Part shown: in pieces, positions 19,642-41,996 of the stretch
Numbering within the stretch: position 1 is the stretch's first letter
How the letters are laid out: every line of letters begins with the position of its first letter
Assembly: GCF_018873765.1 (NCBI RefSeq)
Contig: NC_057925.1
Location: forward strand, 60,586,970 to 60,650,969
DNA: 64,000 bases
From: Telopea speciosissima
Lineage: Eukaryota > Streptophyta > Magnoliopsida > Proteales > Proteaceae
Direction: 5' to 3'
Translations under genes and position numbers: made by a program
The notes under the pieces: model-generated
Told to the model about the DNA's origin: nothing
Seen by the model: only the letters and a program-made list of their open reading frames with translations
The model's database searches: none

Positions 19642-20367
19642 TCACTTCCTAATAATATTTCTAGGCCCCGGGAAAGCCTCTGTGATCCCAGCAAGTCTCC
19701 TTTGCAGCTTCTGAAAGCGAAGGCCACAAGCATTGCATAGGGTCTGCAAAGTAACAAGAAACAGAAAATTAGGGTTTTTTTTTTTTGGGTGAATAAATAT
19801 ACTAAGTGCTGAAACAAAGGGCACAATCTAAATGTGAACAAATTTATCAAAAAAAAAAAAATAAAAAAATTGTGAACAAAAAACAGTTAATGAAGCTTCA
19901 TGCAGTCTCGAGAATGAAAGGAATAATTTTACCTTGCGGCCAAGAGGACCCTTGCGCCAAAGTGGAGTTTCTTTCCTCTTACAGAATGTACATGCCTTGT
20001 CTCCACTGGCGGAACTCGAGGTAGCTCCTGAGTCTCTCTGTGGTGGTGCCAAACTCAGAGTATGTCCAGCATACTTAGCAGAGAGTAAAAGGTTGCAAGA
20101 AGGAAGAGGAGGAGGAGGAGGAACAGATCCCATCACAGGGGTTGAACCCAAGAAATCAATGACCTCAGGAGTTTGGTTATAATTGTTGGGGAAAACCCAA
20201 CAATCAAGTTCACTGTTTGATGATGATGATGATGATGTTCCTACTCTTCTTATTAGATCAAGTTCTCTTTGCGCCGTTACATTCATCGTCCGTTCTCTTT
20301 TCATCATAAACATGATTGTTATTAGGTTAAGAATGAACTCCATCTCTACATCAATGGTGAAAAACAT
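19642..20367 (-). CDS. GATA zinc-finger transcription factor, gene A (HAN-like, short)
   Basis: The coding exons run 20343 to 19933 and 19743 to 19642 (minus). From ATG 20341-20343, the start shared with genes B and C, the protein has 170 residues. An upstream in-frame ATG at 20365-20367 would add 8; B and C have TTG there. The GATA finger is C118-x2-C121-x18-C140-x2-C143 with TPLWRKGPLGRK and TLCNACG, split by a GT-AG intron just before TLCNACG, as in class B plant GATA factors. Upstream are [10 protein letters not shown], a proline run and [18 protein letters not shown] recalls the CTLSLGTPS motif of HAN proteins. It would bind DNA in the nucleus; targets are unknown. Unlike B and C, the region spanning intron 1 is absent and the reading passes from ELDC straight to WVFPNNYN in frame. 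The TATA box and leader acceptor also differ. Possibly functional but changed. Confidence 0.78.
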
Positions 20368-20408
20368 TGTTAGCCCAACACCATGCAAAAAAAAATAATA
20401 ATAATAAA

Positions 20409-20410
<2 letters not shown>

Positions 20411-20439
<29 letters not shown>
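20411..20439. repeat. (GA)n microsatellite in the leader of gene A
   Basis: An uninterrupted AG run of about 28 bases. The same position in gene C (about 37540-37562) also carries a GA run, and gene B has a broken one, so it predates the duplication. Confidence 0.85.
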
Positions 20440-20442
<3 letters not shown>

Positions 20443-20460
20443 GAGTTTAGGACTTGGCTC

Positions 20461-20549
20461 CTGTCCAGCACTCTGCCCGAGTTGCACATGCAGCGTTGGA
20501 CAGAGTGAACCGTGAAAAGACCGTCTCACCCCTGTCCAGGTGCTGGACA
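20461..20549. mobile_element. 89-bp foldback element in the leader of gene A
   Basis: CTGTCCAGCAC and GTGCTGGACA are terminal inverted repeats. Genes B and C lack it at the matching place; there GAGAGTTTA... continues to ATGGTTAAAGGATGGATTAATGG. Confidence 0.55.
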
Positions 20550-21047
20550 TGATCATTTTGGGTGGTTAAAGGATGAATTAATGGAGAAAGAGAGGACGAT
20601 AAGAGGGACTGGAGGAGGGTTGTACCGGACGAAAACACAAATAGCTGGAAAATCTGACACAAAGAGAGGTTTACGTGCATGGACACGTTTTACAGGAGAG
20701 AAGAGAAGTTCACTAAAAACACTGGAAGTAACTGAATATCACAATTCTTTAGACTCCATTAACAAAACAAAAGTTAGAACATTCATTTCCATTTGCAGAG
20801 TGTGATCCCATGACCTACTCTGGAAAATGATAAAAAAAAATACCCATTTGGACATTTCAAGTTACAAACGGATAGAAAGAGAGAGGACTCTGGAAGTAAT
20901 AGAATATAACAATTCCTTAGATTGACCCCATTAACAAAGGCTTAAGCATTCATTATGGTCTTCTCTGGTAACTAATAAAAAAAAAAACCCATTTGGGCAT
21001 TTCAAGTTACAAACGAGAGAGTGAGAGAGAGAGAGAGAGAGCTTACT

Positions 21048-21216
21048 ACTGTCTTTTGCAGAAGCAAAGGTATCGGAAACCAGGTAGAGACAGAGAGAGA
21101 GGGGGTGAGTTGATGGCGAGGAAGATATGAGAGAGTAGAAACCAGGTAGAGTGATGTGAGAGAGAGAGAGGATGAGTTGATCGTGACGAAGAAATGAGAG
21201 AGTACCCCTATTTAGG
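21048..21216 (-). promoter_or_regulatory. leader exon and core promoter of gene A
   Basis: By alignment with B and C, a non-coding leader exon ends near 21050 with a donor-like GTAGTAAG (minus strand). The TATA box of C (CCCTATAAATAATGG) corresponds here to CCCTAAATAGGGG near 21207-21217, a weaker TATA. The leader acceptor CTAACAG of B and C reads CTAACAATG here, so it has no AG. Confidence 0.5.
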
Positions 21217-21493
21217 GAGGTTTTGGAGCGAATATTCGTTTGGGATCCTAGCTTTATGTAGATCATCTCTATTAGGACATGCAAAATGCAAAGGATCCAC
21301 ATCCTCTACTTTCTCTAGTGGTACTTCCATCCTACTTACCTGGCTTGCCAGCACGTCACCTGATTTTATAAAGATCTAACGGCTCTGAAAGAATGAATTC
21401 AACATATTTTGAATTTTACCTGAGGCATGTCTGAACCATCATCAACAACCCAAAACAACCCAACCTGATCGATCTAGTCCTAACCGAACCATA

Positions 21494-21772
21494 CCCTATC
21501 AAACTAAACCCATCTTCATTTTAGATCCCCATTTCAAATCGATCAAAAAGCCAAAGCCCTAAAATCTACTTGCAGAACCATGAGAGGGAAGGGATGTGGG
21601 GCGGAGGGAACTGGACGAGGAAGAGGAGGGGAGCTGTCTAACGTTGTTGCAAGCCCTATCAAACTATACCCATCTCCATTTCAGATCCCCAATTCATTTC
21701 GATGGAAAAGCCAAAGCCCTAAGACGAAGTTGCAGAACCGTGGGAGGAAAGTGGGGCAGAGGGAACTGGACT
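21494..21772. repeat. 160-bp tandem duplication upstream of gene A
   Basis: CCCTATCAAACTA...CCCATCT...CCAAAGCCCTAA...TTGCAGAACC...GAGGGAACTGGAC occurs at 21494 and again from 21654. Confidence 0.65.
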
Positions 21773-23328
21773 AGACTTGGTTATTACCCTCTTCAGAAAC
21801 CACGGATTCACCAAAGATGGAAAGGTTTTGTTCATCAGCTTAGAAAACAAAATCATCAATCATAATCGAAAAAGAAATTAATGTAGTAATTTTTCATAAA
21901 TACAGGCCAAAAATGAAATTGAGCATATTTACTTACGGTCTTATCCCTTACCTCGGCTCCTCAGTAGTCAATGGGAAGCTGCACATGATGAATTCACAAC
22001 TAATCCTCACCTTCCACGTGTCTTTTATTGGCCTCGGTTCTTCGTTTTTGGGCAATTTTATTTTTATTTTCTTTTTGTGATTCTGTATCTCATTAATTAA
22101 TTAAATTTTCCATTGGAACTCGAAAACTATGATTCTCTATCTCATTATCTTTTTTGATTTTCTCGAAATTGAAGTTTCACGATTCGATGTCAAGATCTTC
22201 AAAGTGATCCTCCTCTCCCTTGGTTCTTTCTGCCTCTTATTGGGAGATTTAAGGATGGTCATCATTGATCATATCTGGGGGTTTCTACTCCCCCAACTCG
22301 CTTTTTTTGTGTTCTTCACCTACTCATTTATTATCTATTCTACTGTCCTTTTTGTTCTTTAATCTCTTATAGGCAAAATTTTTCGTATTGTGAGAAAATA
22401 CTCATTTTCTTGGGTAAAAAAAATCATAAATGACATTTGGTTATTCCATTCTAGCCCGTAAATTATTCGATAATCAAAGACCTTTTCTCCCACACTAAAA
22501 TAATGGATACCATAACTAGTTTTTAAGCTTTAAATTATATTTTACTCACTATCCTATTAGATAATTTTTGTGTTCAACACCCCCTTTGAGATGGATTTTT
22601 ATATAGAAGCATATTTGCAATGATATTCTGTTAAAATATATTTTCGAAATATAACAAATCATTACATACATGGATATCGTTTGGCACAACTTCAAGTATT
22701 AAAGTCCACATTATTACGGAAAGTAATCTTACAAGATTTTGTTTTACCAAACACCGATATATTTATTAAGTTCCTTTCTATGCTCTGAAATTTCCTGTTT
22801 TAACAATTTCTTTATGTTGTTACCAAAAATGTCAAACACTTTAATCTCTAGTCAATAGAATATCGTGTAAATTTTGTGGGGGAAGACACCTCTGTCCCCT
22901 TCGCTGTTCTCTCGCTTGAGGAAGGGTGATGATTGGGTTTCTATTTATGTCAAGGAATTGCCTACTAGATAAGGGTCTAAGACTTGTATATGTCTCCTCC
23001 TCTCGGGGGAGAGAACTGACTCACGATGGATAATGCAAGGGTCTTCCTAGATCTATGGGTAGATTCAAAGTTACGTGTTGAGAAGTTTTTACATACCCAT
23101 CCCTGCCTAGTCAGAGGTCAGTCCCTTTCTATTTAGACCATTCACACTTATACTATTTATTAACTCGCATGCATCATAAAGTAGTAAATCTAATCATAAT
23201 CTAAGTCGTTAGATTTAGTATATGGGGAAAACAGAAAAGGGTAGGATGACCAAAATTGGGCATATAGTATAGCTACCTAGACTGCCTATGTAAACTTACT
23301 AAGGAACATGTCGAACATAGTTTAAGAG
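21773..23328. other. upstream flank of gene A with duplicated tail segment, copy 1
   Basis: About 22380-22876 is the tail repeat: GAGAAAATACTC, GATAATCAAAGACC, ATGGATACCATAACTAG, ACAATTTCTTTATGTTGTTACCAAAAATG, ATATCG.GTAAATTTTG. It recurs at 24330-24870, 32510-32720, 34160-34560 and 38905-39130 with 40380-40640. About 22877-23323 is not in the other copies and is unidentified. Confidence 0.6.
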
Positions 23329-23956
23329 CGTTGCCGTCGAAATCTGGCTCGATGATGTGGAAACCTGTAATATGCAAGTAGCACAAGAGAGGCTCAGAGC
23401 GTACTTCGAGTGGGGACCCTTTGATGCTTAAGTAAGTCCGACAGAACAATTAAGTGCAGAGGGAGTATGGAGAAAGAGAGTAATAAGAGAGTAAAATTGT
23501 GAGTTAGTAGTACCTGGGTCCCCCCTTTTTACTATTTAAAGGAGGCGTGGTTATCGAGATGGTTGTTGTGTCCCCTGGTAGCAACCTTGCTAGATACTCC
23601 ACCGACATGTCAAAGAGGGGGTAGTTATCCCCATGATTCCAGGGGCATGCCCTGTAAGGGAGGTTAGTCATTGTTGAGGTTCGGCTGTACGGGGGCCATG
23701 ATGTGACAATTTGCCTCAACTGTCCCTGATCGTGTCTGATTGGTCCTCCTTTATTTGTGAAGAAGTTACAAATCTCGATGTTCTTGCTAACACTGGTGGT
23801 GTTGACGTGGGCATTTGCAACCTGTATCTTGAAGTAATATTCCTTGATGACCTCACACCCTTGATGAGGTTCTCGACATCTTAGGTACCGGCTCCTTGCA
23901 GGCTGATTTCGTGTCACGTGTTGAGTGGCTGTCAAAGGGGTGTTTTGTGCATATCA
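23329..23956 (-). mobile_element. solo LTR fossil, Ty3/Gypsy-like
   Basis: A 628-base LTR-like unit flanked by AAGAG on both sides (23324-23328, 23957-23961). Read on the minus strand it has a TATA-like TTTAAATAG and, downstream, GGACTTACTTAAGCATC, the kind of R/U5 text common in plant Gypsy LTRs. The same family occurs at 39136-40374. No internal domain is attached. Age: older than the Copia-like solo LTR at 39506 but with an intact target duplication. Confidence 0.75.
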
Positions 23957-24329
23957 AAGAGAAATTTGATAGTTAAATGCTATAATACACATGGTAAGAT
24001 ATTGAAAATAAATAACATAAACCTAAATATCTCGTTTAGAAGCCCGAAAATGTAGGAAAAATCTTGATCACAAAACTACCCACCTCGTTACTTTCTGATT
24101 TTACATTTTATTTGATGATTTCAATTTGTTATCGATCATGTTAATATTATGGGTTGTTGTTCACTGTAAGGGTGTGTGGCCCTTGTATGTACGCACGTGC
24201 GCGGAGGTGAGGGCAATGAAAGTGCATACATTGGCATCATGGGACGTTTATTTCATCGCCCCTTTTGTGTCTGGGCATGGGCGGTACACCCCCATAGAGA
24301 ACTTTCTTCTTGATATTATACTAGCTAGT

Positions 24330-24870
24330 CTCGCATGAGAAAATACTAATTTTTTTGAATGATAAAACTATAAATGAGATATGATTATTCCATTCTAACT
24401 CATAAGAGTAATTGAATAATCAAAGGACCTTTTCTTATCTCCCCTAAAAAATGGATACCATAACTAGTTTCTAATCTTTAAATTAATTTTTATTTTTGTG
24501 TTTATCCCCCCCTTGAAATAGATTTCTATACAGAAGGATGTTCCTAAAAACATTCCCGTTAAACTACATCCCAAAAATGTGATAAATCATTGGAAACATG
24601 GATATAATCTGACATTGCATGAGGAATTAAAGTCCACGTTATTACAAAAAGTATCTGACAAGAAATTTTTAACCAAAAACCGTTACACTTATTGAAATCC
24701 CTTTCTTGGCTCTAAATTTTCCTATTTTAACAATTTCTTTATGTTGTTACCAAAAATGCTAACCCTTTTAATATATATATATATTCAGTGGACTATCGAG
24801 TAAATTTTGGATAATAAAAACGTTAATATTTTATAGTAAGAGGTTTTTTTTTTTATTTTTTATTTTTATT
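24330..24870. repeat. duplicated tail segment, copy 2
   Basis: It matches 22380-22876, 34160-34560 and others, including ATAGATTTCTATACAGAAGGATGTTC, ACATTCCCGTTAAACTACAT, ATGGATATA and GGATAATAAAAACGTTAA. No gene here. The flank before it (24150-24320) also resembles 38800-38905. Confidence 0.7.
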
Positions 24871-24995
24871 AAAACAATATATTGGAAGTACACATAGCTT
24901 TTACATGACTAAAGACTACAAAACACTACAGACTATAGAACTACAAGATTACAGAACTACAGAGAGCCAGTTCGAGAGATCTTGGGGATCAGAGG

Positions 24996-25235
24996 TAAGA
25001 ATAGCCGAAATCAATCCGTGTCCATATCCGTTTAACACTATCCTAATCCGTCCGAAAACTAAACGGACGCGGATACAAATAGGCTATTGTTATTCGAAAA
25101 GCTATATTTACATGTAAACGGATAAAATATTTGATTTGTATCTGTTTAGAACTATCTGAATCCGTCCGAAAGCTAATCGGATGTAGATGCGGATATAGCA
25201 CCATCCGAGCCGAATCCGATCCGTTTACATCCCTA
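24996..25235. mobile_element. hAT MITE, family H copy 1
   Basis: It ends GATCCGTTTACATCCCTA. The flanking octamers ATCAGAGG and ATTAGAGG differ by one base, so this is an 8-bp hAT duplication. The left terminus is shortened compared with copy 2 at 25561-25818. The paralogous DNA near 41205 lacks the element. Confidence 0.75.
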
Positions 25236-25287
25236 ATTAGAGGGTGAAGTTAGAGTGTGGACAATCAAGCGGGAGGAGATCTCCAGT

Positions 25288-25289
<2 letters not shown>

Positions 25290-25354
<65 letters not shown>
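25290..25354. repeat. (GA)n microsatellite, about 65 bases
   Basis: A pure AG repeat. The paralog at about 41245 has only a few units, so it expanded in this copy. Confidence 0.95.
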
Positions 25355-25355
<1 letters not shown>

Positions 25356-25560
25356 CCGACTCCTTGTGTCATCCAACGTCATTACGGCATCTATCTCTAC
25401 GCTGGTGTAGGGAGGAAGACCTCACTATAGCTGCACCGAAGCCCATCAATGATTTAATTCATCGTTGGTTGAATTGTTGAAGTATAGGCTCGAACTCGAG
25501 ACTTGTTCAATGCTAAGAAAGGAGCTATTGCATTTTATGGTAATATTGATACAATGTGTG

Positions 25561-25818
25561 TAGGGGTGTAAATGAATAGCCAAAATCCGTTTCCGTATCC
25601 ATTTAGCACTATCTGAATCCGTCCGAAAGCTAAATGGATGCGGACACGGATAGGCTATAGCTATCTGAAAAGTTATATTTACATGTAAACGGATAAAATA
25701 TCCGATCCGTAACCATATCAGTATCCGTTTAGCACTATCCGAATCCATCCGATAACTAATCGGATGCGGATGAAGATATAACACTATCCAAGCTGAATCC
25801 GATCCGTTTACATCCCTA
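25561..25818. mobile_element. hAT MITE, family H copy 2, perfect TSD
   Basis: It starts TAGGGGTGTAAATGAATAG, ends ATCCGTTTACATCCCTA, and is flanked by AATGTGTG on both sides (25553-25560, 25819-25826). 258 bases, non-coding, the same orientation as copy 1 some 325 bases away. Confidence 0.9.
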
Positions 25819-25826
25819 AATGTGTG

Positions 25827-27275
25827 AGAATACATGATTATGTGCAGCATTGTGTGTATGGTTTGAAAACCCAAAATTGGGTCATGTCGATCCGATCGGC
25901 TTCCTCATAATTGGTTGGAATTCGTAGGAACAAAAATTAGGGTTTAGAAATAGTGAAATAAAAATATTAGTTGTTTTTATTTTATTTTAAAAATCATACA
26001 TGTACACAACTCGTCAAACCATCCTCCTTTCTCTTTTCCTCCCCGCTGTCACCTGTCCTCCCTTGTCATCCATTACCACCGCCAAGTTTCTTCTCCATCT
26101 CTGATACCAAGAACCTCTAGATGGTTAACCTCACCCTCTACTAGAGTGTGTTCGCAAAACTTTGGTGAAGATGTTTGATTTCATCATGCCTAGAACAAAG
26201 CAACGAAAAATAAATTGAAAATGTGTGTGTGTGTGTCTTTGTTAGTGAATTTTGAAGAGGTTGTATAGCAGTTTAATGTATTTCTACATAAAACCTCATT
26301 CCAATACAACATATATAGGAAGATTCTTTGTACAACAAAATCAGGGGTGGGGTGATCATTTCACAGTTAGGTTCCCTCTCACCACGGTTGGATAGGAGTC
26401 AGGTCCGGTAGTTGCCCCTTTTCCCCTGGCTAGTTCATGACTTATATCCTCAAACAATAACGGCTAAAACCGAGGGTGGGATGGTCATTTCAAAGAAAAT
26501 CTCTCTCACTCTCTCTCACACACATAATATGAAACTTTTTCCACACGTGCCAGATTCTTTGACTGTGCAAGAGATGGAAAATAAATTCTCATGAAAAAAA
26601 TGAAAAAAAAGTAAAAAAATCAACTAGTTAAACAAATGAAGAAGAACAAATAAGGAAAGAAACATTAATTAAATATGGGTTTAAAGAAAAAAATAAAAGT
26701 GATTTAGTAAGGTAGAAATAAGGAAAGAAGCATTAATAAAATCTGGTTTTAAAGAAGAAAAATAAAAGTAATTTGGTAAGGTAGAAATAAGGAAAGAAGC
26801 ATTAATTAAATCTGGGTTTAAAGAAGAAAGATAAGAGTGATTTGGGAGAAATTTTTATCACCTCTAGTATAGTACATCTCAAGTGCACAAAAAGGACGAT
26901 GTACCTTAAAGTGCTTTTGTTTAAAACACTCCCCCAAGTGCACGTGCACCATCAGCTTTGGGTTTGAGATGCTTGCATCTATCGACGTAACTGCAATAAC
27001 CGATTGCAAAACCAGAAGGTGAATGTGAGGTGCAAGTGTAGGGGAACGTAACAACAATAATTGATTGCAAAAGCCGAAGGTGCAGAGAATCCTAGGAGAG
27101 AAAAGCATCACAAGGACACAATTGGAAAGAGATCAATAACAATAAAAAATAATAAGGAAAAAGAGGTAGTACTGCACCCCAGACACATAGAGGTGAAATG
27201 ACCACCCCACCTCCCATGAAAGGCAAAAATAATCATCCTATTTTCCCGTGCGCTCTCCCATTGGCCCCTGTTAGT
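25827..27275. other. spacer shared with the domain after gene C
   Basis: No gene. 26230-26330 matches 41310-41390 (GGAAGATTCTTTGTACAAC), and 26590-27130 matches 42595-42940 (GCAATAACCGATTGCAAAA). The repeats TTAAAGAAGAAA...GGTAAGGTAGAAATAAGGAAAGAAGCATTAA occur three times at 26640-26840. Confidence 0.6.
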
Positions 27276-27890
27276 TGTAGATAGCTGTAGGCTGACTCAA
27301 TACAAGACAAGGGACACTTCTTTTGCCTCATGATGTTTCATGTGAATATCAGTTGGCGGACCTTTTTACAAAAGCTCACACAATATGTGCATCTACGGTT
27401 TCTAGTATTAAAACTTCAATTGGTCAGACCTTCATAACATACTCAATACAAGATAAGGGACACTTCTTTTGTCTCACGTTTCATCTGAATATCAGTTGGT
27501 GGACCTTTTTACAAAAGCTCACACAATATGTGCATATACCGTTTCTAGTATTCAAACTTTAATTGGTCTGACCTTCTTACAAAAGCTCACACATTTGTGC
27601 ATCTACAGTTTGTAGTATTCAAACTTCAATTCGTCTCTCATCAACCGTCTTGAGTTTGAGGAGAGGAGAGGAGAGGAGAGGGGAGGGGGTTAGCTGTAGA
27701 TAGCTGGAGACCTTATCTTGTATTGAGTACATTTTCTTGTGTTGAGTCAGCCTACAGTCAGCATATCTTGTATAGCCACTAACTTGTATAGAAACATACC
27801 TTGTATAGTGTATCCCCTCTTGTATTTATACATATCTACATTATAAATACAATATACAAAAATACAGAATTATAATATCTATTGTCAGCC
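27276..27890 (+). mobile_element. Ty1/Copia fossil, 3' end of pol and LTR-like part
   Basis: A short stretch reads EYQLADLFTKAHT, the end of the Copia RNase H domain. It is followed by TATAGTGTATCCCCTCTTGTATTTATACAT text typical of Copia LTRs. The pol-end segment is present about three times in tandem (near 27300, 27450, 27560). Broken, with no coding potential left. A related fossil is at 43040-43530. Confidence 0.7.
27656..27690. repeat. GAGAG minisatellite
   Basis: GAGAGGAGAGGAGAGGAGAG followed by GGGAGGGGG inside the Copia fossil. Confidence 0.7.
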
Positions 27891-28035
27891 CCCCACGTGG
27901 TATGAAGGATCATATATGATTATTTATCCAATGGTTATTTGGATCCGAGCCAAAGTGAATCAAATGTAGATGAAAACCTGATCCGTTGGTAGACCTAACT
28001 TTGATGGAAACTTTCAACCAATATGACCCATGGGT

Positions 28036-28058
28036 CTCTCTCTCTCTCTCTCTCTCTC
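28036..28058. repeat. (CT)n microsatellite
   Basis: A run of CT dinucleotides. Confidence 0.85.
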
Positions 28059-28199
28059 ATATGCCTGTATGTTTGGCAGTGTGGGTCATACCATTGCAAC
28101 TGCCGTTGAGGGTATCAAATATCAAAGAGAAGAGGAAGGATAGGGTGATGGTAAGCTGTTCTCTTTTTCTTGGTTTTTTTTGTGTTTTCTTTTCACTTG

Positions 28200-29105
28200 T
28201 AAATATAATATGAGAGAGGGTTTCCCATGAAGCCAGTGTGGGAGGAATCTCGCATGCCACATCAATAGTGATGCAAATATCATTTACATGGGACCCACAT
28301 AGTTAAGTTAAGATTGAGCAAACAATAAATAAACCCATGTGAGAGAGCGACAGTACATTAATTTCATGGCAAACTTTTTTCAAATAATATACTTGTGGGA
28401 GAGGGCTCTCTGAGGAAACAGCATAGAGGAGCACACCAATAAGGTGTGACAAAACGTAATCTTACATTGGAAGGCTGCAAGTAGGTCATTACATGTAAGG
28501 AGAGATGTAAACACAGAAGTTCTATTCTACCAAAAAAAAAAAAAAAACCATAGAGGTGCTAGTGTATCGTGCCCTAACGGTTCAAATTAAGGAAACTTTT
28601 TCCCATATAATAATATGATAATATGTTCTGCCTGGGCCACCGCTCCCTACGTCTATCTCTCTCCTCTTCCCTCTAAAATAACATCTTTGCGCTTCTATTG
28701 GGGAGAGGAGAGAGATAGACCTAGGGATGCTAGAGTAGGCCACATTCTCGGACAGAAAACTCCTCCCCAATACATATTTATGAGTTATTCAAAGTCCATA
28801 ACTATTCATCATCACAAGTATTTAATTAGTATGCTAAACAAAATCTCCAAAGCAACATATATATAAGTTCCATCATTCATAACACAAAGATCCAATGCAA
28901 TAGTTTAAAGACCTAACACACCTTTCATGACATAGTACACAAACAAAATTTGGACCCTTGGCCTAAGATGGACATGGTGCAAAAGTACATGTGTTTGGGA
29001 AAGTTTTCCTTCATCCACTGTGAAGGATTGATCCACAAATCTAAGTTCGTCATTACTTTCCCATCTACATGTTGAAGGTCCAAAATACCGTTCATCGCTC
29101 TGACA
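28200..29105. repeat. GATA-domain segmental duplication, downstream flank, copy 2
   Basis: Paralog of 17815-19460 without the hAT insertion; see that entry for landmarks. It carries a poly-A run at about 28531-28547 that copy 1 does not have. Confidence 0.85.
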
Positions 29106-29483
29106 CCCATCCAAAGCACAATGATGGCCATATATGATAAAATTCCTTCTAAATCATAGGTATAGATCGGATGGAATTGCCCTTGCTTTTTAATAAAAAT
29201 CTATTTTTATTACTTCTTTACCCTTGAATTGTACCAGTGGATCGGCATCAAGTCAGCCGATATTTTGGATCGGTCTCAATCGATACCGATTCGATTCAAG
29301 TGAATCAACTGATCCAATCCCAAGATTACGAACCATGGGTCCGAGTGACCTGCCTTCCAATCCAAGCATCCCAAATCGAACTTCTTCATCATTAAAGGTT
29401 TTCAATTTGGTATATATGGTTCATCATTTCATGCCCTGTATAGATAACCATTATTCATCATACAACATTACTACATAGTCATC

Positions 29484-31369
29484 TCAATGGTTTGGTTTTT
29501 TGATCATGTTTCGAGGTTTCAGGAAGGCTTCATTGTTTCCTTGTACTCTCTTTTCTAGCTTATTGAATCGGATCCCACAGGCATTGCACAGGGTCTGCAA
29601 AGTTACAAGAAACGAAAAAAGTTTTACTACATTAGGAACTAAATCAGTCACCAAATATCATTTAAGATTGTGTTTGGTTTGTATTCTTGGAATAGATTTT
29701 GGATCTAAAACACATTTTGAAATTAGAAAATAGAAAAAAATTGGGTTTTAGAATGTATTGTAGATCCAGATAAGGTCAGGCTTACCCAAAACCCTAGCCC
29801 AATCACTGCCCACTTAGCAAAGAGGCTAGACTCGAAACCAAAGATCACTTGGTCATAATAAATTAAGCAACCTTGACCATTGCACCAAAGCACATTCCCT
29901 ATATAATTTATAAATATATATTATATAATACAAGGTCAAAGGGTCAAGGCCTCAACCTAGGCTCGGTCCGATCCTGCCAGGGCCTTGCAAATATCAAACC
30001 CATACCGACCCTTGCTTATCCCCAGGCCGACCTAGCCTTGTCCGAGCTCAACGCAGGTTTGGGCGGGCTCGGGTTGGCCGGGTTTTTTTGACACCCCTAG
30101 ATCCAGAGTAAATTACGAGAATACATACTAAACACAACCTAAATAAAGCTATATGAAGTCTCAAAAATAAATAAAAAAGAGTGTCCTAGTTCACAAGGCT
30201 CCCGCTACTACAGAGTCTGGGAAAGGCAAATGTACACAGTCTTATCCCCTGTTTCGTAGGAAGGGCTTCCAAAATTTTAACCTGTTACTAACAAGTTGCA
30301 ATAGCGCAACTTACCTAACCGTTGCACCAAGAATGAAATTAAGGAATAATTTTACCTTGTGGCTATGAGGTAAAATGTTTCAGAATGCGTTTTAAACCGG
30401 AAATATATTCTATAGACTACATACCAAACACAATCTAAATTTGAACAAAAGTTAATGAAGTTTCACACAATGTCAAGAACGAAAGGAATAATTTTACCTT
30501 GCGGTCAAGAGGCCCGTTGCGCCAGAGCGGGGTATTGTTGGTCTTGCAATTCATACATGCTTTGTTTCCATCAGTAAGTTGAGGTGGTGCCAAACTCAGA
30601 GTACGTCCAGCATACTTAGCAGAGAGTAAGGGGTGGCAAGGAGGAGGAGGAGGAGGAGGAACCGATGCCATCACAGGGGTTGAACCCAAAAAATCAATGA
30701 ATTCAGGAGTGTTGTTGTTGGTGGTGCGCGCCACATTGTCAGAGTTGGAGAAACTCCATGGCCGGAATCCGCTTGCTCCAGTTATCATATTTCCATGGTT
30801 AACGTTGTTCCCTACCTGTTACAACAAGCAAAAACGTTAATACAGAGTTAGCCGTCACTCAATATGAGCAGCAAAGCTATTACGTACACGTTCACGAGGT
30901 GAATCCGCCGCGTCACCAAGCCGTCAAAGCAATTTCTCTTAAAAATTTCTAAACTAAGAAATCATTGTTGGATTTATTCTCAGAATTTGAAATATCCTTT
31001 CCAAAGAAATATAGAGAATCTATTCTCAAAATTTGAACTATCAAATGCATTTTTTTTTTTTTTTTTTTAAATATTTCATATCGATTCAGTCAAAATAATT
31101 TCAATTTGTTGACCAAAAATGTATTTGTTGATTATTTCAAGAAATCAATCCAAAAATTGAAATAGAAATCATACCAAATCAAGCCTAAAAGGATATGTTT
31201 ATACCTGTGGAGGAGGAATTGATGAGGAACCATAGAAGACAGTGGAGGGATGAAGATGAGTTGGGTTGTTATCGAGCAGACAATCACTATCTGACGATTT
31301 TCCCAGCCGACCAATCAGATCAATTTCTTTCAGTTCCCTTGTCTCGCTTTGCTTCGTCATCTGCTCCAT
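29484..31369 (-). CDS. GATA zinc-finger transcription factor, gene B (HAN-like, short)
   Basis: Exons (minus): 31369-31205, 30815-30498 and 29594-29484. All junctions are GT-AG and in frame, giving 197 residues. The start is the first ATG shared by the three paralogs (MEQMTK); the codon eight positions upstream is TTG. The finger is C142-x2-C145-x18-C164-x2-C167 with [20 protein letters not shown] and [12 protein letters not shown], close to HAN-type class B GATA factors. [13 protein letters not shown], a proline run and SAKYAGRTLSLAPP precede it. The C-terminus (RNMIKKPNH) is three residues longer than in A and C. Intron 1 is 389 bases. Intron 2 is about 900 bases because of a MITE, a hAT inserted in that MITE, a SINE-like piece and a duplicated donor. 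A nuclear DNA-binding role is inferred from family; target unknown. Likely functional. Confidence 0.85.
29665..30142. mobile_element. Tourist-like MITE in intron 2 of gene B, split by a hAT
   Basis: The outer ends AGATTGTGTTTGG and TAAACACAACC are inverted relatives of the 3548-3672 element, next to a TTA/TAA target. The two halves are separated by the insertion at 29771-30099. Confidence 0.65.
29771..30099. mobile_element. 329-bp hAT-type element nested in the MITE
   Basis: It ends TTTGACACCCCTA and starts TAAGGTCAGG. GATCCAGA flanks both sides (29763-29770, 30100-30107), an exact 8-bp duplication. The interior has CTTGTCCGAGCTC and GGCTCGGGTTGGCCGGG text and no ORF. Confidence 0.8.
30178..30340. 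mobile_element. Au-like SINE fragment in intron 2 of gene B
   Basis: The run AAGGCTCCCGCTACTACAG, AGTCTGGGAAAGG, TGTACACAGTCTTA and CCCCTGTTT, ending in CGTTGCACCAAG, resembles plant Au-SINE sequence. Ends are not clear. A second, shorter SINE-like tract is near 29845-29890 (CACTTGGTCA...CCATTGCACCAAAG). Confidence 0.55.
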
Positions 31370-31400
31370 CTCTAGTTCAATGGTCAAAGACAAATATTTA

Positions 31401-32005
31401 CTGTTAGCTCAATACCATGCAAAAAGGAAAAAAATAAAAATAAAAAGAGAGAAAATGTCATACTGTTTAAACTGCAATCAAGAAAACAAAACAGAAAAAG
31501 ACAAATAAAAGAGAAGAGGAGAGAGAAAGCGATCATGAGAGTTTACCTATGGTTAAAAAATGGATTAATGGAGAAATTAAGAGATGAAGATAAGAGGTAG
31601 TGAAGGGAATTTTTTGCACCTTTAAAATGCATCAGACTGTGCACCATTAAAGTGCATTGGATTTTTATCTTTTCTCAAGAGTAGTGCCTACCGTCCGATG
31701 CACTGACACTTGAGAAGATGTAAATCCGAGTGGAGAAGGGTTGTACCAGGTAGTAACCAATGGCGAAATCAGAAGTAGCAGGGAAATCTGACACAAGCTA
31801 GAGAAGTCCACATGCATGGACATAGTTTGTAGGAGAGGAGAGAGGGCCATTAAAAACACTGGAAGAAGTAACATAAGGTCAAAATACTTTAGACTTGATT
31901 AACAAAGTCTAAAGCATCCATATCCATTTGCAGAGTGATCCCATGGCCTTCTCTGGAAACTAATAAAAAAATACCCAAGAGAGAGAGGGAGAGAGTCTTA
32001 CTACC
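31401..32005 (-). other. 5' leader intron of gene B (inferred)
   Basis: On the minus strand GACAG followed by GTAGTAAGAC at 32004 is a good donor, and CTAACAG at 31401-31403 is a good acceptor 32 bases before the ATG. Gene C has the same sites (donor at 38110, acceptor at 37488-37490). The intron carries GA-rich text and, at about 31600-31725, a foldback-like insertion (TGCATCAGAC... and GTCCGATGCA). Confidence 0.5.
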
Positions 32006-32093
32006 TGTCTATTGTAGAAGCTAAGGTAGGGAAAACCTAGTAGAGAGAAAGAGAATGAAAGATGATGGTGAGGAAGAAATGAGAGAGTAGCCT

Positions 32094-32104
32094 TATTTAT
32101 ATGG
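32094..32104 (-). promoter_or_regulatory. TATA box of gene B
   Basis: CCATATAAATA on the minus strand, at the same place as TATAAATA of gene C (about 38258-38267), some 90 bases before the inferred leader donor. Confidence 0.55.
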
Positions 32105-32287
32105 AGTTTTTGGGGAGAAGATACTTTGGGAACCTTAGATTTTATATAGATCATCTGTGGCTATCGATCATTCAAACATGAAAAATGCAAACCAAGGTGT
32201 GAAAATAGAAAGAAAAAGAAAAAGGAAGTAATAATTTTCCATAAATACAGGCCAAAAAAGAAATGGAATATCTTTGTTTATCAATTT

Positions 32288-32450
32288 GGCTCTCCTCCAG
32301 GTGTGGCGGGAGTTGGTGGATCTAGCCTAACCAAAATAGGGGTGTTTGAGTCATTTCACAGGCGGGCCTCACCCTATGAAATGACCAAACCCCCTGTTTT
32401 GGTTGGGTTGGATCCTCCAGCTCTCGCCGTGGCTGGAGGAAAGCGAGGTC
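32288..32450. mobile_element. foldback MITE, family F2 copy 2
   Basis: The left arm GGCTCTCCTCCAGGTGTGGC and the right arm CGCCGTGGCTGGAGGAAAGC pair. The inner text CCAAAATAGGGGTGTTTG pairs with CAAACCCCCTGTTTTGG. Copies at 36730-36902 and a half copy at 19508-19556. Confidence 0.7.
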
Positions 32451-32509
32451 CTTTGTTTACAGTCTTATCCCTTTCCTCGGCTCCTCAGTTGCCAATAGGA
32501 GGGTTGTCG

Positions 32510-32720
32510 TAAAAATTTTCTGTTAAACTACAATTTCCGAAATGTGACAATTCTTAGGAAACATGGATACAGTCTGGCACCGCTCTGGATTTTCCTCTTT
32601 TACCAATTTCTTTATGTTGTTACCAAAAATGCTACACCTTTTAATTATAATATATAGTCAAAGGAATTTCGAGTAAATTTTGAATAATAAAAACCTAAAC
32701 TTTTATTATAAGAGGATTTT
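32510..32720. repeat. duplicated tail segment, copy 3 (partial)
   Basis: Contains CTGTTAAACTACAATTTCC, ACATGGATAC, TACCAATTTCTTTATGTTGTTACCAAAAATG and TTTCGAGTAAATTTTG, in the order of the other tail copies but shorter. Confidence 0.65.
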
Positions 32721-33840
32721 TTTTTTGGATAGTTTAGACGATAAATTTGTTATGTCTCCTAGCGATGATGATAACAAGACGTGGACTGACATTTGTATCA
32801 CTCTCAAAAAGGACTTGCTCATGCACCAATACCATATCACCCTCATATCCATGATAACAATGATAGTAAGGATTAAAAAGATCCCTTTTTATTAGGTATA
32901 TGCCAAGGCAGCAGGAGGTGTCCACAGCGCGTACTTGCAACTCCGTACTTGTGAGTTGTACTAAGATCCTCACGACATCGCAAGTACGACCTCCGCATTC
33001 GCGGCACTACATGAACCTTTTCTACGACATTGCAGATGTACAAAGTACACTCTATGGAGCCCACAGAATCCTAGGGAACCTCTATAAAAGAGGACCCTCC
33101 TTACTTCAAATAAAGGACTTTTAAGCCTTAGGAGGCGTGCTCAAGACATTTTCACCCCCTTTGTGCCTTCTTAGAGTTCCTAAGGCTCTTCCCTCTCACA
33201 GACAGTCTCTTAATAGTGCCTCGGTGCCCCAAGATCATGAAAAGGAAAATTCTCAAAGTTGTCTTAGAACTACGTGCCTGATCCACTTCTTAGCCCGAAA
33301 TACCCTAAGAAATGTAGTCCTTCAAGAGAGAGAGAGAGAGAACCAGATAGCTGGTCCGTCTCCACCTGAGTTTGGAGATTTTATACATTCATTGTCTTCG
33401 GAGCATAGAGGCCCTCCTCTTTCAACCCTAATCAAGGGTTGACCTCAGGTATAATTTTCTTTGCTTCTTTTTTTTCCATTTGGCACAATGTAGAGCATTA
33501 AAGCATCATGTTTTAATGTAAAAAGTAGTATGTATGTGTAGAGATAATTGTCTTTTGATGTAGTTGATGTGTGATAATCAATCATATGTTAGCCTTGCAT
33601 ATTGGTATAGGGTGTGTTATTATAGGAGAATGTTTGAACTTTAGATTTTAATAGAAAGACCGGTTTAACTAGGCGAGATAGGTGAGTAACACCTTCCCAC
33701 TCTTGTAACCTGATCTCTTAAGATCCGACCAAATGGAATCATACGTAGCTCTTTCCTCACCATGAATGGGGTTACCACTTTTGGGTCTTAGGCTCCAATC
33801 CTGGGATCAGACGTTCTTACTTATCATTTTGATTTTCTGA
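32721..33840 (+). mobile_element. Ty3/Gypsy-like LTR fossil with adjoining internal text
   Basis: A TATA-like CTATAAAAGAGG at about 33081 is followed by leader-like sequence and CATTGTCTTCGGAGCATAGAGG at about 33390, which resembles plant Gypsy R/U5 text. 33655-33800 (ACCGGTTTAACTAGGCGAG...GGGGTTACCACTTTTGGG) resembles non-coding internal Gypsy sequence. Broken, with no domains; outer borders are not certain. Confidence 0.5.
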
Positions 33841-34159
33841 GAAATTAAAGTTTCAGTCATCTTCAAAGTTATCTTCGAACCTGGGTTTTAAAATTGCTCG
33901 ATTTAGTGATAGGTCTCATGTTCTTAAAACCATCTCTTGATTTAACCCTTTACATTTTATTATTATGAATATACAACTGCGATTTTTAATGGGTCTTTCT
34001 AATCATTTAAAAATTTACATTACAATGATAAAAACTATTTATAGTTATAATTAAGGCGACCGAATCAAAGAGATAAAGCATAAGGTCATTGGTCTTTAGC
34101 TTCTAATTTTACATTTTATTTGGTGATTTCAGATTTTTATAATGTTAATATTATATTAG

Positions 34160-34560
34160 TCTATCATGATAAAATACTCGTTTTATTTTTTGTGATAAAA
34201 TAAATGAGATATGGTTATTCCATTCTAATTCATGAGTCGTTAGATAATCAAATGACCTTTTCTCTCCCCCCCCCCTTCCATTAAATAATAGATACCATAA
34301 CTAGCTTTTAATCTTTGAATTATTTTTTTATTAACTATCTATTAGGTAATATTTGGGTTTAGCACCTCCTTGAAATAGACTTCTATACAGAAGGATGTTC
34401 GTAAAAACATTCACATTAAACTAAAATTTCCTAAATGTGACAACTCATTGGAAATATGGATATAGTCACATTGCTTGAGGAATTAAAGTTGACAATATTA
34501 CATTTTCATTAAAAAAAAAAGTTGATGTTATTACAGAAAGTATCTGACAAAGTTTTTTCA
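34160..34560. repeat. duplicated tail segment, copy 4
   Basis: Matches the tail at 24330-24870: GATAAAATAAATGAGATATGGTTATTCC, ATAGATACCATAACTAGC, GACTTCTATACAGAAGGATGTTCGTAAAAACATTC. It shows the un-inserted state of the site that holds the Gypsy LTR at 39136. Confidence 0.7.
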
Positions 34561-34616
34561 AAAAACAAAAAAAAGTTGTGATCATTCTCACATTCAGATA
34601 AAGTTTTGCTTTTACT

Positions 34617-34769
34617 TAGGTCTACAAACGGATCGGATTCGGCTCGGATATGGATTGGATGTGATCAGATCCAGATAATCCCTAGCCGAATATGAATACC
34701 TCTAAACGGATTCGGATGGATTTGGATGCAAATTGAATTCGGATTTTTGACCATCCGTTTACATCTCTA
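34617..34769. mobile_element. hAT MITE, family H copy 3
   Basis: Ends TAGGTCTACAAACGGAT and ATCCGTTTACATCTCTA, relatives of the 25561 element. No matching octamers flank it. A further degraded piece lies at about 34925-35065. Confidence 0.55.
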
Positions 34770-35313
34770 CCTTGTGTAACCCAAACCTTCCTCCCCCTAG
34801 CGGATACAATTCACTCTCAATCCATATCTCTTAGAACATGATTATCTATTCCTCATATTTTAGAACCTGTTGAAGCTTCAAAACCCTCAAGATTATTATT
34901 TACTTAATTTATTATTATTAAGTATTCAGATATTTTTCCTGGCAGATTTTATTGGAGTATTCGGATTTTTTTCTGGATATCTCTAAACAAATACGGATGT
35001 CCCTAAATGGATACAGATGCAGATCGAATTCAGATTTTTAGTTATCCATTTACAACCCTAGTTTTACCCCTCATAGCAGCCACAACAAATTTTTGATCTG
35101 CATCTGTATCCATTTAGGGACATAATCGTAAATCTCAGTTGATTTAGTACATAATGTTTTGGTATGGTTCATCATATCTTGTACAATTTTTACCCAAAAA
35201 AAAATATAACACCACAATTCAGCTTTATCTCATATCAAGTACTATATACAAACAACACAATTGAGCTTTATAGATAACCTTTATTCCTAGCTATACGACA
35301 TATTACTCCACCT

Positions 35314-37456
35314 TCACTTCCTAATAATACTTCTTGGCCTTGGGAAAGCCTCTGCGATCCAAGCAGCTCTCCTTTTCTGCCTTTGAAAGCGAATGCCACA
35401 CGCATTGCATAGGGTCTGCAAAGTAACAACAAACAGAAAATTAAGTTTTTTTTTTAAGGTGAATAAATATACAAGGTGCTGAAACAGGAATTTTATTCTC
35501 GTCCAGTCCATCTCATTTGAGAATTCAATCGTACACTCAACACTTGAGAAGATAAAAAGACATCACTTCTCAAAAATGAAAGGAATAATTTTACCTTGCG
35601 GCCAAGAGGACCGTTACGCCAGAGTGGAGTTTCTTTCTTTTTACAGAATGTACATGCTCTCTGAGGTAATGCCAAACTCAAAGTATGTCCAGCATACTTA
35701 GCAGAGAGTATGGGGTTGCAAGGATGATGAGGAAGAACAGATGCCATTACAGGGGTTGAACCCAAGAAATCAATGAACTCAGTAGTGTGGTTATTGTTAT
35801 TGCTGGTGGTGTGGGCCACATGGTCATAGCTGGGTAAAACCCATGACAGGAATGGATTTGCTCCAGTTATCATCACTCCATCGTTGTTCCCTACTTCCTG
35901 TTAACAGCTAAAACGTTAATACTGAGGTGAATCCGCCACGTCATCAAGCCGTTAAAGCAATTTTCTTTAAAAAAAAAGTCGATACTAGGAAACCATTTTG
36001 TACAACATACAACGCAACACTATCATGATGATGCAGATGAAACCTTAGTTCGACTCCGAGCCTCAAATGTAGGTCCCATAATTGGGATCTGAATCCGTCC
36101 TAAATCCGTCAAGATCAGTGAGGAAACGATCGGTTTTGGTATTAGGAATATAATTGAAAAATCGGGTTTTGAGTAGGGGAGTCGCTTGAGTTGAGTCAAA
36201 ATTTTGGAAATTTGGTCAAGAGTTATGTAGACTAAGCCATGGTAAAAAAAAAATGAAGAGACTGGGTTATAAATCGTTCAAGTTAAATAAGACTTTGTAT
36301 TTTTATTTGAGTCCTGACAAACTCGATGAGTTTAGTCATTTTAAAAATAAAAAAAACCATAAAATTGAAACAGTTAGAAACTGAATTGATTAAAATAATA
36401 AAACTATATTATAATTCCCTTCTCTCGTTCAATGGTATAAATTCAAAATTCATTGATATGTGATTCCTTTATTTTATTTATTTTTTATCGTTTTCCCATA
36501 TTTTCCATGTATTTTCTTATTTTTTTAATAATATAAACATATTCATAAATCAAACAAAGAAACCTAGAATTCTCCTTTTTTTTTCTTCTATTCTTTTATT
36601 CCTTGCGTCCAAGGTTACATCCGGGACCATTAGATAGGAATTCGAAGATGAAGAGCGAAACAAAAAATATCACTACTGTGTAAACGGAGAATTTGAGAGT
36701 AAGCATTACAATCTCCAAGACCTTTTGGGGTTTGGATCCGACTCTCTTCCAGCTGTGGCGGGCGTTTTCACCCCAACAAAAATAGGGGGGTTTTGGTTAT
36801 TTCATGGGGGGCCTGCTAGCCGCATGTGAAATGTCCCAAACACCCCGTTTTTGCTGGGTTGGATCCTTCTACTCCCACTACAGCTGAAGGAGACCCGAAT
36901 ACTTTGGGTTTATATTAAAATATAAAAAACAAGTCTCGCCTTGATCGGGTTTGATAAGAGCGAATCACCAAGTCTTTCTAAAAGACGAGTTGAGTCAGAA
37001 AACCAAGTTTTCCAACTATGATTTAGGATCGATTGGGATAAATTGGCTGGAATCGAGATTAACCTTGTCAAATTCCAATCCAAAGTGGTAGGTTTCCTTT
37101 GATCCATAAAATTCGTCAAAAAGAGGAGAAGGGTTAGGGAGACGTTTGCGTTGCAATCATGATAGGAAAGGAAGGGGATCGGTCACCATGGATCGGTTTT
37201 TGTGACCGAAACATGAAACAGATTAATTAAAAGGTTATGCAGCTTATACCTGTGGAGGAGGGATTGGGTTGTTATCGAGGAGGAGACAATCCATATGGAA
37301 ATGGGGATGGTCACCACCCTTATCATTAACAGATGATTTTTTTCCGACATTATTTATGAGATCCATTTCCCTTGGCGCCCTTACATTCCTCATCCGGTCC
37401 ATCTGCATCGTATACATAACCGCCATAAGGTTTAGTGTTGCGGCTGTGAACTCCAT
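35314..37456 (-). CDS. GATA zinc-finger transcription factor, gene C (HAN-like, short)
   Basis: Exons (minus): 37456-37250, 35897-35595 and 35415-35314, all GT-AG and in frame, giving 203 residues. The start is the shared ATG ([11 protein letters not shown]); the upstream in-frame codon at 37480 is TTG. The finger is C151-x2-C154-x18-C173-x2-C176 with [20 protein letters not shown] and [12 protein letters not shown]. The [13 protein letters not shown] and [12 protein letters not shown] motifs are kept, with a shorter proline run than in A and B. Intron 1 has grown to 1352 bases and contains the F2 foldback element; intron 2 is 179 bases. The C-terminal PRSIIRK matches gene A. Class B, HAN-related by finger and intron position; a nuclear DNA-binding protein of unknown targets. 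No lesion seen, so likely functional. Confidence 0.85.
35898..37249 (-). other. intron 1 of gene C
   Basis: 1352 bases against 389 in gene B. It contains the F2 foldback at 36730-36902 and AT-rich unique DNA. No other gene is seen inside. Confidence 0.6.
36730..36902. mobile_element. foldback MITE, family F2 copy 3
   Basis: The left GGATCCGACTCTCTTCCAGC pairs with the right CTGAAGGAGACCCGAAT region, with AAAATAGGGGGGTTTTGG in the centre as in the 32288-32450 copy. Confidence 0.65.
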
Positions 37457-37487
37457 CTCTGCGTCAATGGTGAAACACAAATCTCTA

Positions 37488-38110
37488 CTGTTAGTTCTAC
37501 ACCATGCAAAGAATAAATAATTAAATAAATTAAAGAAAGAAGAGAGAGAGAGAGAGAGAGAAAGAGATCGAGATCATGAGAGTTTAGTTTAACTATGGTT
37601 AAAGGATGGATTAATGGAGAAAGAGAGGAAGATAAGAGGGAGTGGAGGAGGATTGTAACGGCAGTAAATAATGGCGAAAACAGCAGTAGCAGGGAAATCT
37701 GACACAAGAGAAGTTCATGTGCATGGACAGGTTTTGTACGAGAGGAGAGAGGGGAATTTTTTTTCTGTTCGGTTTCCTGCTTGGTACGGTTGTCCACTTC
37801 CTCTCATAGGGAGTCGGTGTGTTTCGGCAGGGGGTTAAGTCCTCATTTCCGGTTTCCTGTGAGAGGAATCGGACAACTGTACCGATAGAGAACCGGAGAG
37901 AATAATGATCGGGAGAGAGGGCCCATAAATACACTGGAAGTAACTGAATATCACAATTCTTTAGACTCCATTAAAAAAGCCTAAAGCTTCCAATTCCATT
38001 TGCAGAGTGTGATCCCATGGCCTTCTCTGAAAACTGATAATAAAAAAAAAAACCCACTTGGACATTTCAAGTTGCAATCGGGGAGAGAGAGAGAGAGTCT
38101 TAATTATTAC
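37488..38110 (-). other. 5' leader intron of gene C (inferred)
   Basis: Donor AAAG|GTAATAATTAAG at 38110 and acceptor CTAACAG at 37488-37490 (minus), matching gene B. It contains a GA run (37540-37562) and the MITE at 37754-37911. Confidence 0.5.
37754..37911. mobile_element. 158-bp foldback MITE with 9-10-bp TSD
   Basis: The arms TGGTACGGTTGTCCACTTCC and GGAATCGGACAACTGTACCG pair. GGAGAGAGGG flanks both sides (37744-37753, 37912-37921), which suggests a Mutator-type 9-10-bp duplication. Absent at the matching place in genes A and B. Confidence 0.75.
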
Positions 38111-38182: not shown

Positions 38183-38257
38183 CAAAGGTATGGGGAAACC
38201 AGATAGCAAGAAAGAGAAAAGGTAAGTTGCTGGTAAGGAAGAAATGAGAGAGTACCA

Positions 38258-38267
38258 TTATTTATAG
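38258..38267 (-). promoter_or_regulatory. TATA box of gene C
   Basis: CCTATAAATAATGG on the minus strand, conserved in position with gene B. Confidence 0.55.
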
Positions 38268-38299: not shown

Positions 38300-39130
38300 C
38301 TAGATTTATGTAGATCATCTTTAGGCATCGATCGATAAGCAATGCAAAATGCAAGCTAGGGGGTGGAAAAGGGAGGTAATATTTTTTCATAAATACAAGC
38401 CAAAAATGAAAGTGAACATGCATCTTTATTTACAGTCTTATCCCTTACCTCGGATCCTCAGTAGACAATGGAAAAGCTACCCATGAAGTCACAACCAATC
38501 CTCACCTTCCACCTGTCCTCTATTGCCCTCAGTTAACGTTCTTCGTCTTTGGGTAATTTTATTTTCCTTTTTCTGATTCCCATTTCATTAATTAATTAAA
38601 AAATTTTGCCATCGGAACCTAAAATTTATCACATTTAATGATATACAAAATTAAGCAAAAAAAAAAAGAAAATTTCAAAAACTGGGATCGGATGTTCATC
38701 TCTTTTAATTTTCTTGGAAATTTTAGTTTTACGATTGGGTATCATATTCTTCAAATTGTTTCTTCTCTTCCCATGGATAAGCAGAAATCCCACTCCCCAT
38801 GATACTTGCGTGCATACTTTTATTGGGCCCGGGCCCTACCCTAATGCAGGGGCCACTCGACTAGGTAGCGTTCTTTTCCTTAATATTATACTAACCAGTG
38901 TAGCGTGAGAAAATACTCATTTTTTTAGTGATAAAACTATAAGTGAGATATGGTTATCTCATTCTAACTCATAAGAGTTATTGAATAATCAAAAAGACCT
39001 TCTCTCTCCCCCCCCCCCTCCCCCCAACACTAAATATTGGATACCATAACTATTCTCTGATCTTCAAATTAATTTTTATTTTTGTGTTTAAGGCACCCCT
39101 TGAAATAGACTTTGATATAGAAGGAAGTTC
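38300..39130. other. upstream flank of gene C with tail segment, copy 5 (first part)
   Basis: No gene. 38380-38560 matches the upstream of gene A (CTTATCCCTTACCTCGG, TCCTCACCTTCCAC). 38905-39130 is the tail repeat, interrupted at 39135 by an LTR and resumed at 40380. Confidence 0.6.
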
Positions 39131-41579: not shown

Positions 41580-41996
41580 TCGTCCATAGGGGGCGGGGAG
41601 GAGAGAGGACCTGACGACATAGTTTGCATTAACAGCTCAGAGATAGATTTTTTAAATTTAGAGAATTCCCTCGACATTAAAGTAGTAAATCGCATTGATG
41701 AGAAAGCCGGAGACAAATTCATTCATTAGAAAACCTATATTTCTATTAGGAGAGAGAAGAGTGTCACTGTGAACCCTACATTTCATTATGTTTGGGCGTG
41801 TGAAAAAACTGCATAACATATAGGATCAGTCCATACCGAGATCCGATTTTTAAATCCCTAAAGCAGGTTTCTTCTTTTTCCAGACTCAAAAATGAATTCT
41901 CCAAAACATTAACGTTGTTTCAGCATTTGATGACAACCGTTATAAAGGTCCAGCCTAATTGTATTGGCAAAGAGATTTACGATTGTATGAGTAATA
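41580..41996. repeat. inverted duplication arm 1 (partner 54062-54488)
   Basis: The sequence from GGGGGCGGGGAGGAGAGAGG to GAGATTTACGATTG is found reverse-complemented 12.5 kb away with about 10 percent difference. On the minus strand it is open from 41722 for 75 codons (MRFTTLMSREFSKF...), while arm 2 keeps the same start but closes after EFSKF. The protein is not recognised. Either a dispersed transposon or a copied exon. Confidence 0.7.

Follow-up and report, generated by a model that had tools for sequence, protein, structure and literature searches.

A tandem trio of short B-class GATA genes in Telopea speciosissima and a paralogous array on the same contig

Gene models

We analyzed a 64,000-nucleotide stretch of the Telopea speciosissima genome (C10:60586970-60650969, hereafter the window, to which positions without a prefix refer). 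It carries three B-class GATA genes in tandem on the minus strand at 19642-37456, here named G1, G2 and G3. A sequence-only reading of the window had proposed three such genes within these bounds and was right on both points. The stop codon of G1 ends at 19642 and the ATG of G3 begins at 37456, and all three genes have intact frames and a Pfam GATA match above the cut-off (3.3e-13 in G1, 1.8e-12 in G2 and 7.5e-13 in G3).

19642-20343, minus strand: gene G1, 170 amino acids, unbroken frame
19933-20343, minus strand: G1 fused exons 1 and 2, with the start codon, ending at the finger-splitting intron
19642-19743, minus strand: G1 last exon, with the second finger half, a basic tail and the stop
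29484-31369, minus strand: gene G2, 197 amino acids, unbroken frame
31205-31369, minus strand: G2 exon 1
30498-30815, minus strand: G2 exon 2
29484-29594, minus strand: G2 exon 3
35314-37456, minus strand: gene G3, 203 amino acids, unbroken frame
37250-37456, minus strand: G3 exon 1, carrying the eroded HAN core
35595-35897, minus strand: G3 exon 2, with the IDFLG and SAKYAG blocks and the first finger half
35314-35415, minus strand: G3 exon 3

All introns of these models are GT-AG. Intron differences among the genes, as proposed earlier, were found: intron 1 measures 1352 bp in G3 and 389 bp in G2 and is missing from G1, and intron 2 measures 179 bp in G3, 903 bp in G2 and 189 bp in G1. The start codons had also been thought to differ, a view that we reject because the ATG context AGAGATGGA is homologous in all three genes; the G2 protein is shortened by an in-frame deletion directly after the start. 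Exon 1 of G1 runs straight into exon 2, intron 1 having been deleted with the frame preserved. From our reading of the letters, about 30 codons were probably deleted at this fusion as well, and its junction would lie where GATTGT of exon 1 meets TGGGTTTT of exon 2. Local alignment of G1 finds exon-1 similarity stopping by position 116 and exon-2 similarity beginning at 156; this internal deletion is poorly placed by MAFFT.

Family placement and the HAN core

Searching the genome (822,943,500 bases in 1287 contigs) with G3 gave 63 matches at E values up to 10. Beyond other GATA fingers, these comprise an array at C10:3.80-3.83 Mb, which we call array A, and copies on C1, C3, C7 and C8. Array A consists of the genes Ab, Ac and Ad, each open and with exons 1, 2 and 3, and of a lone exon-3 remnant, Aa. 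Eight other B-GATA loci of the same genome (L066-L073) were fetched for comparison, with introns read from their frames. L066 and L069 have a full HAN core and HAN finger, L067, L068, L070, L071 and L072 have an LLM end, and L073, which looks broken (SLCNVCG), was left out of the tree.

The earlier assignment to class B is borne out. All six array genes, that is the trio and those of array A, have one type IV finger of the form CX2CX18CX2C, which in the trio is split by an intron directly before LCNACG, as in the other B-GATAs fetched. In a finger tree of 55 columns and 15 rows from this one genome (including seven of the other B-GATAs and two of four class A loci, L001 and L003 having been filtered out), the trio and array A form one group (98/100), which joins the two HAN genes, HANa and HANb (98/98), and the LLM genes and the two class A genes lie opposite. 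Among the rows compared, the three genes thus fall in one clade and not in unrelated GATA clades. The closest solved structure for the fingers of G1, G2, G3 and Ad is 8j48, of GATA transcription factor 18, which we take to be HAN; we assume that this entry stems from the SAP05-GATA18 crystal-structure study (PMC10850148).

The genes had been called HAN-like, a term that suits their side of the tree but not their domain type. The HAN core (SVDCTLSLGTPST in the HAN genes of this genome) is matched at 13 of 13 residues in HANa and HANb, and at 8, 7 and 6 of 13 in Ad, Ac and Ab (shuffle p 0.0002, 0.0006 and 0.0044). Each of G1, G2 and G3 matches it at 4/13 (shuffle p 0.0204, 0.1946 and 0.0382), which we do not count as a HAN core. 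The best-matching stretch in G1 and G2 is ELDL/EIDL, away from the homologous place; G2 and G3 have an eroded core, and most of the core has been deleted from G1. Because the core fails in the trio while array A, HANa and HANb carry it, the trio is not of the HAN-domain type; its members are HAN relatives with the hallmark domain lost. They share with HAN/GATA18 the class B finger, the intron position seen in the two HAN genes, the closest solved finger by sequence and the nearest tree group. Apart from the core, they differ in that the finger junction reads RK|T where HAN has PK|S, the coding sequence spans three exons (two in G1), and nothing after the finger is comparable to the FLSWRLN end of the HAN genes of this genome.

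Similarity to the LLM-domain B-GATAs (GNC, CGA1 and GATA15-17) extends to the class B finger and the intron position. These lie on the opposite side of the tree, however, and the trio proteins lack the LLM C-terminus, ending in IIRK or IKKPNH, whereas the five LLM genes of this genome end in LLMALSCG and four further residues. Array A has the same three-exon plan, promoter, intronic element and block neighbours as the trio, and the same finger signature GRK|T (which reads DRK|T in G2), the RK|T junction being present in 6/6 genes of the two arrays and 0/7 of the other B-GATAs compared. Array A differs in retaining the HAN core and in having a weaker SAKYAG block.

Shared motifs outside the finger, as claimed in the sequence-only reading, are present. 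Using probes taken from the trio itself, the IDFLG block is matched at 10-12 of 12 residues in the trio and the SAKYAG.TLSLA block at 13-15 of 15. IDFLG is matched at 6/12 in Ac and Ad (p 0.0005), with nothing convincing in Ab or the seven other B-GATAs (lowest p 0.0465, in HANb). SAKYAG is recognisable in Ac and Ad (7/15; p 0.0010 and 0.0020), is absent from Ab, and was not found in the seven other B-GATAs, apart from a weak match in HANa that overlaps the finger (p 0.0155). Its suggested role as a family-specific motif holds within this genome, for the trio/array A family against the seven other B-GATAs compared. The SAKYAG block was also considered as a HAN domain and rejected; the HAN core is separate and lies in exon 1.

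B-GATAs with a degenerate HAN domain are described for Arabidopsis (GATA29) and cucurbits (GATA16) in excerpts of PMC4337238 and PMC6499211, and the trio belongs to this known kind. One possibility, which we hold tentatively and as somewhat doubtful, is that the trio and array A are orthologous to GATA29 and GATA16, which are likewise HAN-side B-GATAs with an eroded HAN domain; the family would then already have a name. The published finger of those genes is, according to an excerpt of PMC6499211, CX4CX18CX2C, in contrast to CX2CX18CX2C in the six genes here, and no GATA29-type finger was found in the trio. The excerpted parts of the 2015 review (PMC4337238) give no information on a role of GATA29 and term the biological role of the HAN domain unknown. 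Tandem GATA pairs are ordinary, with two pairs in poplar as an example in an excerpt of PMC10532138. Searches of the open-access literature with the trio motif strings, or with Telopea speciosissima and GATA, found no paper.

Promoters, leaders and the intron-1 element

If features shared with array A are taken as ancestral, the ancestral plan would have begun with TATAAATA, then a stretch resembling CATTTCTTCCTCACC and a long leader that had its own donor and acceptor. Of the three exons that came next, the first two would have been separated by intron 1, which held a conserved element, and the last two by intron 2, which lay within the finger. The features of the window that bear on this plan are the following.

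38255-38267, minus strand: G3 TATA box (CTATAAATA)
32090-32102, minus strand: G2 TATA box (ATATAAATA)
21205-21216, minus strand: G1 counterpart of the TATA box, short of two bases
37487-38110, minus strand: G3 leader, with 38110 as first intron base at the inferred donor and 37487 as first exon base past the inferred acceptor
31400-32004, minus strand: G2 leader, with 32004 as first intron base at the inferred donor and 31400 as first exon base past the inferred acceptor
20368-21048, minus strand: G1 leader, both homologous splice sites altered
35924-36049, minus strand: G3 intron-1 conserved element, with TGATAG and TGACGT
30883-30966, minus strand: G2 intron-1 conserved element, shortened, without the TGATAG half

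Promoter differences were among the earlier claims and are evident: TATAAATA is present in four of the five aligned promoters (Ab, Ad, G2 and G3; Ac was left out), and only G1, two bases short, lacks it. A leader-intron layout common to the three genes is partly upheld. Inspection by eye gives a donor (GTAGTAAG or GTAATA) and an acceptor (CAG|TA) for G2, G3 and Ad, but both sites are altered in G1, which has further GT and AG sites close by that might be used instead.

Five of the six array genes have the intron-1 element: G2, G3, Ac and Ad, along with Ab, which has part of it. G1 alone lacks it. The identity of the element reaches 83% between G2 and Ac (83 columns), 73% between G3 and Ac (127 columns) and 68% between G3 and Ad (130 columns); for comparison, the longest stretch that is collinear in the duplicated block described below is 66% identical. 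TGATAG lies within the element of G3, Ac, Ad and Ab. Part of the element is present in the C3 remnant, and no match was found in G1, in the copies on C1, C7 and C8, or in the eight B-GATA loci outside the arrays. When the genome was searched with the G2 form at E 0.001, the matches listed were G2 and G3 alone. DNA genome searches skip common words, and this one must be insensitive because it missed Ac, which carries the element, so that we do not claim rarity for it. The element may act as an enhancer, possibly answering to GATA factors. HAN is reported to bind its own promoter, with HANL2, GNC and GNL repressed downstream of it (excerpt of PMC4337238), and a GATA site in the element would therefore fit feedback control.

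Measured against the putative ancestral plan, the trio presents a graded loss. G3 is the most complete copy, G2 has lost part of the element, and G1 has lost the most: it lacks the TATA box, the two conserved splice sites of the leader, and intron 1 together with the element. The regulatory divergence that the sequence-only reading had proposed thus stands as a diverging cis-regulatory layout, at the level of sequence alone.

Constraint on the coding frames

Pairwise dN/dS (95% bootstrap interval) was 0.56 (0.35-0.93) for G1-G3, 0.45 (0.29-0.67) for G2-G3 and 0.33 (0.20-0.50) for G1-G2. In simulations of neutral evolution with substitutions only, frames survived at rates of 0.047 for G1, 0.053 for G3 and 0.004 for G2, assuming branch lengths, based on the dS values, of 0.165, 0.165 and 0.35, respectively. 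With indels at 10% of substitutions, the frame survived in 0/4000 runs for each gene.

It is possible, but in our estimate unlikely, that G1 or all three genes are decaying pseudogenes whose frames are open merely through recent duplication. The G1 branch carries 8 synonymous and 22 nonsynonymous changes and the G3 branch 10 and 22 (13 codons undetermined), and because these youngest-branch counts are near neutral, G1 or G3 could be a young pseudogene. The loss of TATA box, leader splice sites and intron 1 in G1 points the same way, as do the broken copies at C1, C3, C7 and C8. On the other side, the all-codon dN/dS intervals of the three pairs within the trio all have upper limits under 1 (the finger codons alone being too few for G1-G3), an open frame would survive neutral substitution by chance at only about 0.05, 0.05 and 0.004, and the coding alignment contains several frame-preserving length differences. 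Our reading is that the three genes would be functional and under weak constraint, which is most doubtful for G1.

Array A, the duplicated block and dispersed copies

Array A and the window lie in paralogous blocks, anchored by a CCCH-KH gene next to each array.

10039-10833, plus strand: exon of the CCCH-KH neighbour gene, anchor of the duplicated block
4108-11070, plus strand: stretch collinear with C10:3789082-3798979 beside array A

The best paralogue of the CCCH-KH exon, at C10:3797957-3798745, is 89% identical, has the same orientation and adjoins array A; for this pair, dS is 0.48 and dN/dS 0.12. In a tree of exon-3 DNA (102 columns, 11 rows), array A forms one group (100/99), G2 groups with the C3 and C1 copies (94/92), and G1 and G3 group with the C7 and C8 copies (84/92). 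The genes are tandem copies, as had been proposed, but triplication is too simple a description because G2 groups with different remnants than G1 and G3, and a second array exists on C10.

All four dispersed copies examined (C1:54.26 Mb, C3, C7 and C8, a count that excludes a fifth copy at C1:53.58 Mb) are broken, through stops, lost cysteines, missing blocks, frame changes or reversed exon-1 pieces. The copy at C1:54.257 Mb (L042 5016-5491) has exon-1 pieces in alternating orientation, and the C7 and C8 copies each have one exon-1 piece reversed, as if by template switching. At C7:48.348-48.350 Mb (L044 5190-6820), beside a broken GATA copy, a unit of the GATA 5' leader is tandemly repeated, with five long matches; there are one long and one partial match in the C8 copy and two partial matches in G1 (20719-20885 and 20887-21031).

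A block upstream of the GATA genes was also found to recur.

22391-22876, minus strand: block upstream of GATA genes, up to 486 bp
24336-24809, 32582-32682, 34167-34501, 38906-39123 and 40383-40617: further pieces of this block

It has at least 12 matches genome-wide: six in the window, two in array A, one on C7, two on C8 and one at C10:38.52 Mb. Those on C7 and C8 lie some 26-32 kb from GATA remnants. We do not claim constraint on the 486-bp block because its cross-array identity of 69-70% is about that of other collinear DNA (66%).

Spread of the copies by a transposable element carrying a GATA fragment would account for the broken copies on C1, C3, C7 and C8, the reversed exon-1 pieces in the C1, C7 and C8 copies and the leader units in tandem on C7, but is very unlikely, given that the upstream block has at least 12 matches in 823 Mb and that the C7 and C8 copies look like segmental copies because they have common flanks beyond the GATA gene and the upstream block about 26-32 kb away on the same strand as the exon-3 remnant.

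Other features of the window

The earlier reading had placed the genes next to many insertions, a claim checked in part: a remnant of a non-LTR (LINE-like) retroelement lies at 13137-15670, and its matches to RVT_1, zf-RVT and RVT_3 each fall in a separate frame. An inverted pair at 41586-42008 and 54062-54485 is 93% identical over 425 columns, and direct repeats at 52719-53793 and 59756-61122 (76% and 89%) lie about 7 kb apart. A Pfam scan of two of the six frames at 44-59 kb found nothing at E 0.001.

Discussion

We consider it likely that the trio is a local tandem family of short HAN-side B-GATA factors that lost the HAN core and whose copies were unequally re-wired. The ancestor would have had a TATA promoter, a long leader, an exon 1 with a HAN-type core, the intron-1 element and a finger split by intron 2. 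This ancestral locus would now be present twice on C10, in two paralogous blocks, with the plan retained by the copies at 3.8 Mb and the HAN core lost from those in the window. Judging from the family, the finger most likely still allows the trio proteins to bind WGATAR sites, and these proteins would act without whatever the HAN domain recruits. Re-wiring would have left G3 with its promoter, leader splice sites and intronic element, taken part of the element from G2, and removed the TATA box, leader splice sites, intron 1 and element from G1 via frame-keeping deletions; the copies may therefore differ in expression.

Besides the near-neutral youngest branches, several observations weigh against this interpretation. 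Since the HAN-core shuffle p values of G1 and G3 are nominally below 0.05 (0.020 and 0.038), a faint trace of the core may persist in these genes. The 83% and 73% identities of the intronic element come from 83 and 127 columns. Faster change of the finger in the window lineage, suggested by the tree, was not upheld by relative-rate tests (not significant, largest chi-square 3.6) and is not claimed here. Over all codons, cross-array dS of the GATA genes is about 1.2-2.2 (lower limits at least 0.83; saturated for G2-Ab), and because this exceeds the 0.48 of the CCCH-KH pair, the arrays may hold GATA lineages that parted before the block duplication. When the comparison is confined to the 39 finger codons, the intervals extend down to 0.44 and would not exclude 0.48. 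Either silent change was faster in the GATA genes, or two lineages stood side by side before the duplication and one was kept in each block.

Read as such a re-wired tandem family, the trio looks like a compact example, provided by nature, of how duplicated copies diverge. It is less ordinary for one module to be lost by degrees over three neighbours, with a paralogous array preserving the ancestral state. Two paralogous GATA arrays, one with the HAN domain kept and the other with it lost, can be compared within one genome, and the stepwise loss of promoter, leader splice sites, intron and element over G3, G2 and G1 provides a clean expression prediction. A bolder idea, to which we give little credence, is that these genes form a HAN-stripped, lineage-specific GATA set that would occupy GATA sites in competition with full HAN proteins, in the shoot or flower, each copy acting in a different expression domain via stepwise loss of the promoter-leader-intron module. 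The waratah bears showy bracts. As HAN relatives suppress bracts in grasses, according to an excerpt of PMC4337238, a role of the trio in these bracts is, by analogy, conceivable.

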